A DNA stretch of 64,000 nt from positions 456,658 to 520,657 of the forward strand of contig NZ_JAANNO010000001.1 of NCBI RefSeq assembly GCF_011250645.1. Direction: 5' to 3'. A program made the translations under genes and the position numbers. Each line of letters begins with the position of its first letter. Position 1 is the stretch's first letter. The notes beneath the pieces are model-generated. The model was given only the letters and a program-made list of their open reading frames with translations. It did not search any database and had not been told where the DNA came from. Positions 57,245 to 63,937 of the stretch are shown piece by piece. Source of the DNA: Motilibacter aurantiacus (lineage in GTDB: Bacteria; Actinomycetota; Actinomycetes; Motilibacterales; Motilibacteraceae).

Positions 57245-57625
57245 TCAGTCGTCGGCGGGGGCGCCGGGCAGCGCGGCAGGCGGGACGTCCGCCATCCACT
57301 GGCCGAGCCGGTCGCGCTCGTGCACCAGATCGCGCACGTCGAGCGCCGAGTAGCCGGGGTCGGGCGCCCAGAACAGGGCGTCGAACGGGCAGGCCTCGAC
57401 GCAGATGCCGCAGTACATGCAGAGCCCGTAGTCGATGGCGAACCGGTCGAGCACGTGGACCGAGCGGGGCCGGCCTCCGGGGCCTTCGGCGGGCTGGCGC
57501 TCCACGTGCGAGTCGATCTCGATGCACCAGTCGGGGCACTCGCGGACGCAGAGCATGCAGACCGTGCAGTTCTGCTCGAGCAGCGCGATGACGCCGCGAC
57601 TGCGGTCCGGTGCCGGATAGCTCAT
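57245..57625 (-). CDS. nuoI: NuoI-like 2x[4Fe-4S] ferredoxin subunit
   Basis: 126 residues, shorter than typical NuoI (~165-200). Two complete cluster motifs, [12 protein letters not shown] and [12 protein letters not shown], bind N6a/N6b-type clusters and would pass electrons to NuoB. The C-terminal region [20 protein letters not shown] is NuoI-like. ATG 57625 overlaps the nuoC stop (ATGA). No membrane segment. Part of the three-gene nuoB-nuoC-nuoI unit. Confidence 0.88.
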
Positions 57626-58194
57626 CGCTGCCCCCAGGTGCCGGGCTCGGGTACGCCGGGGGGCAGGGTGCGCCGGCGCGCCCGCCCGCTCGGCTCGTGC
57701 TCGCCCGGCCACGGCCGGGCCACCCGGCTGGCCAGAACGAAGCCCTTGCGCAGCGGGTGGCCGGCGAAGCCGTCGGGCAGCAGGAGCGGGCGCAGCCCGG
57801 GGTGGCCCTCGAAGACGACGCCGAACATCTCGTGGGCCTCCCGCTCGTGCCAGGCGGCGCCGGCGAAGACGTCCACGACGCTGGCGACCTGGGGCGCGGA
57901 CGGGTCCGTGAGGGTACGCAGCAGCACGCCGTGGCCACGGTGCCCGCCGTCGGGCGCGAGCAGCGAGGCGACGACACGGACGCCCTCGTCGAGCTCGTCG
58001 ACCGCGGTCAGCCAGTCGAACCACGCGAGCCCGAGCCCGTCACGGGCGGCGAGCAGGCTCTCGCGCCAGCGCGGCGCGGCGACGTCGGCGTACGCCGTGC
58101 CGGTGGCGGTGCCCACGGCGAGCAGGGAGTCGCCGAGGGCGGGCTCGAGCGCGGCGCGCAGCTCGGCCTCGGCGACGGGGGCAGCGGCGGTCAC
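57622..58194 (-). CDS. nuoC: NuoC-like (30 kDa) subunit
   Basis: 190 residues. [40 protein letters not shown] and [20 protein letters not shown] then RKGF match the 30 kDa complex I/group 4 hydrogenase subunit, which packs against NuoB and Nuo[12 protein letters not shown] in place of WxEREVxDMFG recalls hydrogenase-type homologues. GTG 58194 overlaps the nuoB stop (GTGA). Confidence 0.88.
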
Positions 58195-58655
58195 GGCAGC
58201 AGGGCCTCGAGCTTGGCCAGCCCGTCGGCCAGCGCCTCGGGCCGGGGCGGGCAGCCGGGGACCCAGACGTCGACCGGGAGGAACTGGTCGATGCCCTTGG
58301 TCACGCAGTAGGAGTCCCAGTACGGTCCGCCGCTGGTGACGCAGGCCCCGTACGCGACGACCCGCCGCGGCTCGGGGAGCGCGGCGTACGCGTCGAGGAC
58401 GGCCGGCAGCAGGGTGTCGGTGACAGTGCCGCTCACGAGCAGCACGTGGACCGGAACCGGACCGGGCAGGGTGTCGGCCGCGGCGGACGGGCGCGCGACG
58501 GCTGCGGCCACCTCGACCGCGCAGCAGGCGAGCCCGGCGTCCGCCACGTGCAGCAGGTGCCCGCGCCCCCACGGCAGCGGGGCGCGCTCGGCGGGGCCGA
58601 CCGGGGCGGGGCGGGGGCGCCCCACGGTGGGCAGCGGCAGGAAGGCGGGGCTCAC
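58191..58655 (-). CDS. nuoB: NuoB-like (20 kDa) Fe-S subunit
   Basis: 154 residues. All four N2-type ligands are present: the tandem Cys44-Cys45 in GLACCAVEV, Cys105 in YGACVTSGGPYWDSYCVTKG and Cys135 in VPGCPPRPEAL. The segment between the first two motifs is shorter than in respiratory NuoB. GTG 58655 after GAAGGGG. First gene of the unit; divergent from the DUF1524-beta-helix gene (148-base gap). There is no nuoD in the window. Confidence 0.88.
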   Translation of the reverse strand: MSPAFLPLPTVGRPRPAPVGPAERAPLPWGRGHLLHVADAGLACCAVEVAAAVARPSAAADTLPGPVPVHVLLVSGTVTDTLLPAVLDAYAALPEPRRVVAYGACVTSGGPYWDSYCVTKGIDQFLPVDVWVPGCPPRPEALADGLAKLEALLP

Positions 58656-58803: not shown

Positions 58804-60708
58804 GTGAGCTCGATTCGACGTGCCGTCGTGGCGGCGGCCGCCGGGATCGCCGTGGCGGCAGGGGGCCTGGCCTCCGGTGGTGGCAGCGCGATCGCGGCAC
58901 CCGGCGCCGGCCAGTCGGCTGTCGCGCCCGCGGCGGCCAAGGTCACCGCCAGGGCCGCGCTCGCCAGGCTGAAGGTGAAGCCGTACGGCTCGCTCGCCGG
59001 CTACTCCGGCGCGAAGTTCGGCAGGACGTGGGCCGACATCGACGCGAACAAGTGCGACACCCGCAACGACATCCTCTGGCGCGACATGGTCCGGACCGCC
59101 AAGCTCAAGCCGCGCAGCCGCTGCGCGGTCGCCAGCGGGTCGCTCACCAGCCCCTACACCGGGCGGGTCGTCGCCTACCGTGCGGCCAGGCCGGTCGTGG
59201 CGGTGGACCGCACGGTCACCCTGCAGGAGGCGTGGCGCAGCGGGGCAGGCCGGTGGAGCCAGGCCAAGCGACTGGTGTTCGCCAACGACCCGCTCAACCT
59301 GCAGGCGGTCGACGTCGCGTCGAGCAAGAGGCGCGGCACGAAGGACGCCGCCTCCTGGCTGCCGTCGAGCGCGAAGTACCGCTGCGCCTACGTGGCCCGC
59401 CGGGTCGGGGTGAAGACGAAGTACGGCCTGCCCGTAACCACCGCCGAGAAGCAGGCGATGAGCTCGGTGCTGGCGAGCTGCCCCTCGCGGGTCATGCCGA
59501 CCGGCGGCGCCTCGCTGCCGCGGGGCGGCAACGCCGGCGGCAAGCCGCAGCCGGGCTCGCCCCCCGGTGTCGACGTGCCGCCGGTCACCGACGCGCCCGA
59601 CCTCCCGCCGGGCACCACCTCGCCGACGCCCACCCCGACGCCGACGAGCCCAGCTCCCGCGAGCCCTGCGCCGGGGACGCCCACCGACCCGCGCAACCCG
59701 GGCACCCCGCCCTACACCCCGGGCACCGGGACCGGGGCCCTGCCGCGGCCCGGCGTCGAGGGCCAGGACTGGACCCCCGCCATGGGCAGCGCCTTCTTCA
59801 CCCCGGCCACGTTCTCCGAGCTGCGCAAGGCCATCGCGGCGGCCCGGCCGGGCACCGTCATCACGCTGGGCGACGGGGCGTACCTCTCGCGCATCGTGCT
59901 GTCCGCCAACGGCACGAAGGAGAACCCCATCGTGCTGCGCGGCAGCCGCGGCGCGATCCTCAGCTCCGGCGGCATCTCCAGCGGCGTCGGGCTCACCATC
60001 ACCGGGGACTACTGGCGGGTCGAGGGCATCACGATGACCCACTCGCAGAAGGGCGTCCTGCTCGACGGCTCGGTCGGCACCGTTCTCGACGGCATCGAGG
60101 TCAGCGACACCGGCAACGAGGCCGTGCACTTCCGCAAGGGCTCCAGCGACGGGGTGATCCGCAACAGCTGGATCCACCACACCGGGGTCAGCAAGCAGGA
60201 GTACGGCGAGGGCGTCTACATCGGCTCCGCGGTGTCGAACTGGCCCTCGCTCACCGCGGGGCAGCCCGACCTCTCCGACCGGGTCCTCGTCGAGAACAAC
60301 GTGATCGAGCACACCTCCGCCGAGGGCGTCGACATCAAGGAGGGGACCACGGGCGGCATCGTGCGCGGCAACACGTTCGTCCGCTCCGGCGTCTCCGGCG
60401 CCAACTTCGCCGACTCCTGGATCGACGTGAAGGGCAGCGGCTACTCGATCGTCGGCAACTCCGGCAGCGGCGCCGACTTCCTGCGTGACGCCATCCAGGT
60501 GCACGCGACGAAGTACCCGAAGAAGCACCCGCGCGAGGGCTACGTCATCGAGGGCTCCGGAAACGGCAACTACTTCAGCGGCAACCGCGCCCTGGACGGG
60601 ATTCCCGACTACACGGTCAACGTGGTCGCCGGCTCGGGCAACGTCGTGGCCTGCGACAACACGCACGCGCTGGGCGCCGGCCACGTGAGCAACATCCGCT
60701 GCAGCTGA
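58804..60708 (+). CDS. Secreted DUF1524 (HNH-like)-parallel beta-helix fusion protein
   Basis: 634 residues from GTG 58804, with a GGGGGG-rich ribosome site. Signal peptide (about 1-32, ending GGGSAIAA). Residues ~55-228 match DUF1524/GmrSD C-terminal HNH-type domains: KFGRTWADIDANKCDTRNDI, LQEAWRSGAGRWS, FANDPLNLQAVD, SSKRRGTKDAASWLP, YRCAYVARRVGVKTKYGLPV. The usual DHVV active-site segment reads VDRTVTL (Asp135, Arg136), so the catalytic histidine appears lost. After a Pro/Thr/Gly linker (~232-320), residues ~325-634 form a right-handed beta-helix (TVITLGDGAYLSRIVLSANG, PIVLRGSRGAILSSGGI, then repeated GI/GV rungs) like polysaccharide lyases. Substrate unknown; likely extracellular, acting on or binding polymers. 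Confidence 0.83.
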   Translation: MSSIRRAVVAAAAGIAVAAGGLASGGGSAIAAPGAGQSAVAPAAAKVTARAALARLKVKPYGSLAGYSGAKFGRTWADIDANKCDTRNDILWRDMVRTAKLKPRSRCAVASGSLTSPYTGRVVAYRAARPVVAVDRTVTLQEAWRSGAGRWSQAKRLVFANDPLNLQAVDVASSKRRGTKDAASWLPSSAKYRCAYVARRVGVKTKYGLPVTTAEKQAMSSVLASCPSRVMPTGGASLPRGGNAGGKPQPGSPPGVDVPPVTDAPDLPPGTTSPTPTPTPTSPAPASPAPGTPTDPRNPGTPPYTPGTGTGALPRPGVEGQDWTPAMGSAFFTPATFSELRKAIAAARPGTVITLGDGAYLSRIVLSANGTKENPIVLRGSRGAILSSGGISSGVGLTITGDYWRVEGITMTHSQKGVLLDGSVGTVLDGIEVSDTGNEAVHFRKGSSDGVIRNSWIHHTGVSKQEYGEGVYIGSAVSNWPSLTAGQPDLSDRVLVENNVIEHTSAEGVDIKEGTTGGIVRGNTFVRSGVSGANFADSWIDVKGSGYSIVGNSGSGADFLRDAIQVHATKYPKKHPREGYVIEGSGNGNYFSGNRALDGIPDYTVNVVAGSGNVVACDNTHALGAGHVSNIRCS

Positions 60709-60874: not shown

Positions 60875-61004
60875 GCGACAGACGGCGGCAGTGCCTGCGC
60901 AGAGCTCCCGAGGACGACGCGCGTCGGCTCTCCCGCAGTCCGCCGCATGCGCTCGTTGCCGCAGTCCTTGCAGGGACGCTCCGCCGACCAGGAGGCTAGT
61001 TCGC

Positions 61005-62890
<1,886 letters not shown>

Positions 62891-62894
<4 letters not shown>

Positions 62895-63937
62895 CTGTCG
62901 CGGACCTGCCCACCCCGAAGCTGACGGCCAAGGACTTCAAGACGGACCAGGAGGTCCGCTGGTGCCCCGGCTGCGGTGACTACGCCATCCTCGCCGCCGT
63001 CCAGGGCTTCATGCCCGAGCTGGGCGTGGCGCGCGAGAACATCGCCATCGTCTCCGGCATCGGGTGCTCCTCGCGCTTCCCGTACTACATGAACACCTAC
63101 GGGATGCACTCGATCCACGGGCGCGCCCCGGCGATCGCCACCGGCCTGGCCGCATCCCGGCAGGACCTCTCGGTCTGGGTCATCACCGGCGACGGCGACG
63201 CGCTCTCGATCGGGGGCAACCACCTGATCCACGCGCTGCGGCGCAACGTCGAGCTGAAGATCCTGCTGTTCAACAACCAGATCTACGGCCTGACCAAGGG
63301 GCAGTTCTCCCCCACGTCCGAGCTGGGCAAGATCACCAAGTCCACGCCGATGGGCTCGCTGGACGCGCCGTTCAACCCGGTCTCGCTGGCCCTCGGCGCC
63401 GAGGCGACGTTCGTCGCGCGCACCATGGACTCCGACCGCAAGCACCTGACGTCGGTGCTGCGCGCGGCGGCCGAGCACAAGGGCTCGGCGCTCGTGGAGA
63501 TCTACCAGAACTGCAACATCTTCAACGACGGCGCGTTCGACGTGCTCAAGGACCCGGAGACCCGCGAGGACTTCGGCTTCCAGCTGCAGGACGGCGAGCC
63601 GATCCGCTGGGGCAAGGACGGCCGGTACGGCATCGTCCGCGACGCGGCTACCGGCTCGCTGCGCGTGGTCGACGACGTCGACGACGACAGCGTCGGCCGG
63701 CTGCTCGTGCACGACGCGCGCAACCCCGACCCGTCCACGGCGTTCGCGCTCTCCCGGCTGCAGGACTCCTCGCTCGCGCGTACCGCGTTCGGGGTGTTCC
63801 GCGACGTCAACCGCCCGGCCTACGGCGCCCTGGTCGAGGACCAGATCCACCGGGCCAAGGCGACGCAGGGCGAGGGCGACCTCGGGGCGCTGCTGGCCGG
63901 CGGCGACACCTGGACCATCTCCGGGACGATCAACTGA
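62891..63937 (+). CDS. korB: 2-oxoacid:ferredoxin oxidoreductase subunit beta
   Basis: 348 residues. Cluster and cofactor residues: WCPGCGDYAIL, GIGCSSRFPYYMNTYGMHSI, and the thiamine diphosphate motif ITGDGDALSIGGNHLIHALR, then FNNQIYGLTKGQFSPTSELG. The third conserved cysteine lies in EIYQNCNIFND. There is no separate delta ferredoxin subunit, so it must reduce a soluble ferredoxin. GTG 62891 overlaps the korA stop. Confidence 0.95.

Follow-up and report, generated by a model that had tools for sequence, protein, structure and literature searches.

The closest described relative of the lyase half discussed here is PsAly (6KFN) from Paenibacillus sp. FPU-7, an endolytic alginate lyase classed as PL31 (PMC8618178). 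Its catalytic residues are Tyr184 and Lys221, its first cation site consists of Glu181, Glu216, and Asp219, and the residues Lys128, His154, Arg156, Asp250, and Lys252 are invariant (PMC6796002). With its 33 kDa, however, PsAly is a lyase that lacks a nuclease domain, unlike the fusion protein described below. A secreted PL31 lyase is likewise joined to other domains in CelAly, a GH5-PL31 protein of marine Flavobacteriaceae, whose partner is an active cellulase together with Big domains (PMC13235733), whereas the partner in our protein is a degenerate nuclease. As for this nuclease half, it shares the Pfam family PF07510 with the GmrSD type IV restriction enzymes, and the published motif of the family is E/D-H-N-N (PMC4619093). 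Its predicted fold is shared with Vvn and endonuclease I (1OUO, 1OUP, and 2G7E). In Vvn and NucB, the distal helix begins with an Asn that is in contact with both metal and scissile phosphate (PMC5758888). Regarding the secreted DUF1524 proteins, which are common in actinobacteria, our literature search, which had most subscription papers outside its reach, found neither a paper on their role nor a description of a DUF1524-lyase fusion.

In the window (the whole stretch of 64,000 nucleotides of Motilibacter aurantiacus DNA that was analysed, positions being counted from its first letter), both domains are encoded by a single gene with the following features:

58804..60708, + strand: DUF1524-PL31 fusion gene, one unbroken ORF with GTG start and TGA stop, 634 aa
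58804..58896, + strand: predicted export signal, approximately residues 1-31 (RR, hydrophobic stretch, and AIA motif, read from the sequence; the cleavage site is an estimate)
58942..59502, + strand: DUF1524/HNH pseudonuclease domain, residues 47-233 (PF07510 match, AlphaFold2 model, and VIA match to Vvn/endonuclease I)
59209..59211, + strand: Arg136 codon, where the catalytic His is expected (VDRTV for IDHVV; alignments)
59323..59325, + strand: Ser174 codon, where the metal-site Asn of the third HNH motif is expected (alignments)
59332..59334, + strand: Arg177 codon, where the conserved Lys of the NxxK motif is expected (alignments)
59503..59790, + strand: linker rich in Pro/Thr/Gly, leading up to the beta-helix, residues 234-329 (sequence)
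59791..60705, + strand: PL31-type right-handed beta-helix lyase domain, residues 330-634 (6KFN homology, model, and Foldseek)
60217..60219, + strand: Tyr472 codon, equivalent to the PsAly catalytic Tyr184 (alignment with PsAly, PMC6796002)
60337..60339, + strand: Lys512 codon, equivalent to the PsAly catalytic Lys221 (alignment with PsAly, PMC6796002)

The first-pass annotation had read this gene as one exported polypeptide that joins a DUF1524 domain to a beta-helix across a Pro/Thr linker, and the ORF, a typical export signal, the linker, and the Pfam matches were all found. A Shine-Dalgarno-like GGGGGGT stands just 5' of the GTG at 58804, and the start codon and its surrounding context are kept in M. 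deserti.

The assignment to DUF1524 is supported by a PF07510 (GmrSD_C/DUF1524) match over residues 141-220 with an E-value of 1.2e-7 and 32.2 bits, above the curated cut-off of 23. For residues 47-233, an AlphaFold2 model based on the fusion sequence and fetched homologues has a pLDDT of 95.4. Foldseek alone gives this model weak E-values (best 0.04), and with VIA six endonuclease I/Vvn structures reach Z values of 10.1-10.5 over ~134 residues, followed by 5.5 for the next rows. According to the model, residues 47-233 have a bba-Me (HNH) nuclease fold, closest to that of secreted endonuclease I/Vvn, with 12-15% sequence identity to these enzymes. A GmrSD restriction enzyme was also considered and rejected, since no DUF262 (GmrS) is present in the fusion or in the eight neighbours scanned and the protein carries an export signal; its E/D-H-N-N motif is also disrupted.

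In the alignments, the E/D-H-N-N positions of the M. aurantiacus fusion are occupied by Asp135, Arg136, Asn161, and Ser174, and the next conserved Lys by Arg177. The functional residue set is thus incomplete, with Asp135 and the structural Asn161 kept and the His and the metal-site Asn lost; where Vvn has Glu79-His80 and Asn127, the fusion has Asp135-Arg136 and Ser174. The downstream N and K/D motifs had initially been described as remaining, which is true for Asn161 (FAND) and Asp181, but the Asn of the NQxK motif is replaced by Ser174 and its conserved Lys by Arg177. Because this third motif is also lost, the site is more degenerate than the first description suggested. With both the general-base His and the metal-site Asn gone, DNA cleavage by the fused domain is not expected at the sequence level, and the domain is most probably a pseudoenzyme. 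Its four invariant cysteines are kept.

The comparison with unfused homologues is based on two samples. The first one (n=44) includes 7 sequences from genomes and 37 from viral contigs, many of the latter near-identical, and contains 26 distinct sequences at 85%. The second one (n=37) was taken from a class-wide set of 60 genomes, among which 39 have a PF07510 match and 40 matches were inspected; three long-ORF matches of this class-wide set (L084, L085, and L088) show no match to the secreted-type HNH profile. The column of Arg136 contains His in every unfused homologue sampled (44/44 and 37/37), which confirms the replacement pointed out earlier, and all of the His, the FAND-type Asn, and the NxxK Asn with its Lys are kept in 81/81. 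In contrast, none of the five fused copies has the metal-site Asn, and only L012 retains the His, which is changed to Arg in the other four. The fused HNH domains form a single clade in the tree (support 100/99), indicating a single origin and descent rather than five independent events. As for the relationship to the secreted actinobacterial DUF1524 proteins, these have the same domain, cysteines, and export signal as the fusion at 33-51% identity; one of them, the intact unfused protein L030, is encoded in the same genome. Another unfused DUF1524 protein, found in G002 (L032:1228-2538), is joined to an Excalibur calcium-binding domain.

These data bear on the idea that nuclease activity survives in the HNH half, with Arg136 or some other residue standing in for the His. 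The kept Asp135 and Asn161, the fold typical of secreted endonucleases, and the example of NucB, a bba-Me finger nuclease with Glu in the place of His (PMC5758888), speak in its favor. However, neither the base His nor the metal-binding Asn is left, the Asn being lost in 5/5 fusions, and an intact unfused DUF1524 protein is available in the same genome, which makes a surviving nuclease highly improbable.

According to their net charge, the fused HNH domains (+15 to +26, pI 10.6-11.1) are far more basic than the unfused proteins of the first sample (−18 to +13) and of the second sample (−28 to +11, with one outlier of +22), although the fused copies are one clade and the charge-test probabilities are therefore not independent evidence. 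Over the shared alignment columns, the values are +12 to +18 for the fused domains and −13 to +8 for the 26 distinct unfused ones. Among the basic residues gained in the fused copies are Arg136 and those at positions 175, 176, and 180, the latter three adjoining the lost Asn, and conserved acids are lost at positions 97, 116, and 179. The outlier, L111 (G057:C1:303700-304900), is unfused, has intact catalytic motifs, and is the only strongly basic unfused DUF1524 protein in the survey.

Regarding the second half of the protein, the first-pass annotation had proposed a polysaccharide-lyase-like beta-helix. The beta-helix itself is supported by a PF13229 match (E-value 3e-7), but its type is more specific. 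Searched with phmmer against PDB sequences, the protein has 6KFN (PsAly) as the sole strong match (E-value 8.6e-45, residues 332-609), and the AlphaFold2 model of the lyase domain (pLDDT 90.9) has the same structure as its top Foldseek match (TM 0.83/0.85); the homology to PsAly extends across the whole beta-helix. All 10 key residues of PsAly are conserved in the alignment (Y472, K512, E469, E507, D510, K416, H442, R444, D541, and K543), and His278 and Gln276 of PsAly correspond to H567 and Q565. Judged by this alignment, the domain of residues 330-634 belongs to the PL31-type polysaccharide lyases and has a predicted intact site. Four less conserved cleft residues (A476, N479, L483, and F535) differ from PsAly, so the substrate may differ as well and may not be polymannuronate. 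Other identities of the beta-helix were rejected: the NosD copper protein is represented by weak sub-cut-off matches only, and chondroitinase B/PL6 is sub-cut-off in Pfam and far behind 6KFN in the fold search.

The genome of M. aurantiacus encodes four more secreted PL31-type proteins without the HNH domain (G000:C3:150536, C2:181189, C2:390571, and C3:414497, or L013, L018, L023, and L026, respectively), one of them with a Big_7-type domain, which represents a family expansion in a soil actinobacterium. Genes with PF07940 (heparinase II/III-type) are also present and have little bearing on the substrate.

The fusion is present as four syntenic orthologues, the M. aurantiacus gene included, in two genera of Motilibacteraceae. 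In M. aurantiacus, G001, and G002 it is flanked by YajQ-HtpX-NuoI/C/B-type genes and by KorA-KorB, and in M. deserti (L003, a contig of 8,426 bases) it lies between HtpX-NuoI/C/B and KorA-KorB. In the window, the gene is inserted between the NuoI/NuoC/NuoB-like set (57245-58655, − strand) and the KorA/KorB-type 2-oxoacid:ferredoxin oxidoreductase genes (60891-63937, + strand), in an order conserved in the four genomes. G001 contains a second, paralogous fusion copy, L012, which adjoins the divergent PL31 gene L028. The survey of this domain combination therefore yields five fused copies, all from Motilibacteraceae. The genome of a third genus of the family (G004) is without the fusion; a contig scan of close relatives shows it only in M. 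deserti, and it was not seen among the 40 inspected PF07510 matches from the 60 class-wide genomes, among 290 matching plasmid records (none over 80% of the query), or among 4 matching phage records, which match the HNH half only. Based on these surveys, the fusion is likely restricted to Motilibacteraceae. In the PL31 tree, the fused lyases are grouped with support of only 74/71.

The two halves differ strongly in how they are preserved. Between M. aurantiacus and M. deserti, the HNH domain has 86% identity and a pN/pS of 0.21, practically the same as HtpX (87% and 0.21), while the intact unfused nuclease of these genomes has 72% and 0.37, and the fused lyase half 47% and 0.87 versus a pN/pS of 0.32-0.55 for four unfused PL31 pairs; since synonymous sites are close to saturation, all these ratios are comparative only. 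A catalytically dead HNH domain constrained like HtpX evidently does something. A structural relic, that is, a stable disulfide-bonded N-terminal domain that aids secretion or folding and binds nothing, would account for the retained fold and the four invariant cysteines. Both the housekeeping-level conservation and the strong positive charge shift, however, exceed the needs of a spacer, and the other PL31 paralogues of the same genome manage without an HNH domain. We regard the relic as unlikely.

As for the lyase half, its site is complete in M. aurantiacus and in both G001 copies, but two orthologues from different genera have lost it, as judged from their sequences. The M. deserti lyase (L003:4585-5463) lacks the equivalents of His442, Arg444, Glu469, Tyr472, and Lys512, and the G002 lyase (L011:2359-3201) has lost catalytic residues by a set of substitutions different from that of M. 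deserti; the ORF remains open in both cases. With the lyase site intact here and lost in two orthologues, the pseudonuclease is the better-preserved half. Domain replacement was considered as a source of the divergent M. deserti lyase and is weakly opposed by the similar pS of the two halves (0.36 vs 0.41), both values being near saturation.

This inequality may also be read as the sign of a mainly matrix- or surface-binding protein, in which the basic pseudonuclease is essential and the lyase is dispensable, being active in some species and a passive second beta-helix in others. The contrast in identity and pN/pS between the halves agrees with such a role, and so does the loss of the lyase site in M. 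deserti and G002 by different substitutions, with the HNH domain present in 4/4 orthologues. The complete site in M. aurantiacus and both G001 copies, however, means that selection for activity is needed at least there, and we consider this reading rather unlikely, if less so than the relic.

The explanation we prefer, with about an even chance of being right, is that an exported PL31-type polyuronate lyase carries, on a flexible Pro/Thr linker, a pseudonuclease that has taken on a new role as its polyanion-binding module. After a single fusion event in the ancestor of part of Motilibacteraceae, the metal-site Asn disappeared from the fused HNH domain and, in the four syntenic orthologues, so did the general-base His. 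According to the sequences and the model, the domain became more positively charged, with new Arg/Lys residues within the former active-site segment and beside it; fold and cysteines were retained. The old nucleic-acid-binding face may now bind a polyanion without cutting it; candidate ligands are a polyuronate such as the lyase substrate, extracellular DNA of the biofilm matrix, and an anionic cell-wall polymer. Once bound, the HNH domain could act in the manner of a carbohydrate-binding module and keep the lyase at its target, or it could retain the protein in the matrix. By analogy with PsAly, the beta-helix would act on an acidic polysaccharide through beta-elimination, in which Lys512 would serve as the base and Tyr472 as the acid, and a cation at Glu469/Glu507/Asp510 would assist the cleavage.

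Delivery of the beta-helix to a polymer by the HNH-derived domain, which the first-pass annotation had suggested, fits the purifying selection on this domain, its strong basicity, and the new charges around the old active-site segment. Several observations, however, stand against the preferred explanation. A pure role of delivering the lyase does not predict the fast evolution of the lyase and the loss of its site in two orthologues, the paralogue L012 keeps the His, and the basic charge rests on one clade, with the intact unfused L111 equally basic.

Judged from the sequences, the domain architecture appears to be new and built of two known families, with an unusually well-preserved pseudonuclease half. 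Tentatively, and with the balance somewhat against it, one may speak of a bba-Me nuclease domain converted to a polyanion binder: catalysis disappeared, a strongly basic character was acquired, and no other part of the secreted lyase is now under tighter constraint, the attached lyase having died in some lineages where the binder was kept. The loss of the active site, the selected fold, and the union with a polyuronate lyase point to the anionic extracellular matrix as the workplace of the DUF1524 domain. Should binding be demonstrated, the domain would be an accessory module of nuclease origin attached to a polysaccharide lyase. How differently the HNH and lyase halves have fared offers a natural experiment on the question of which activity is under selection.
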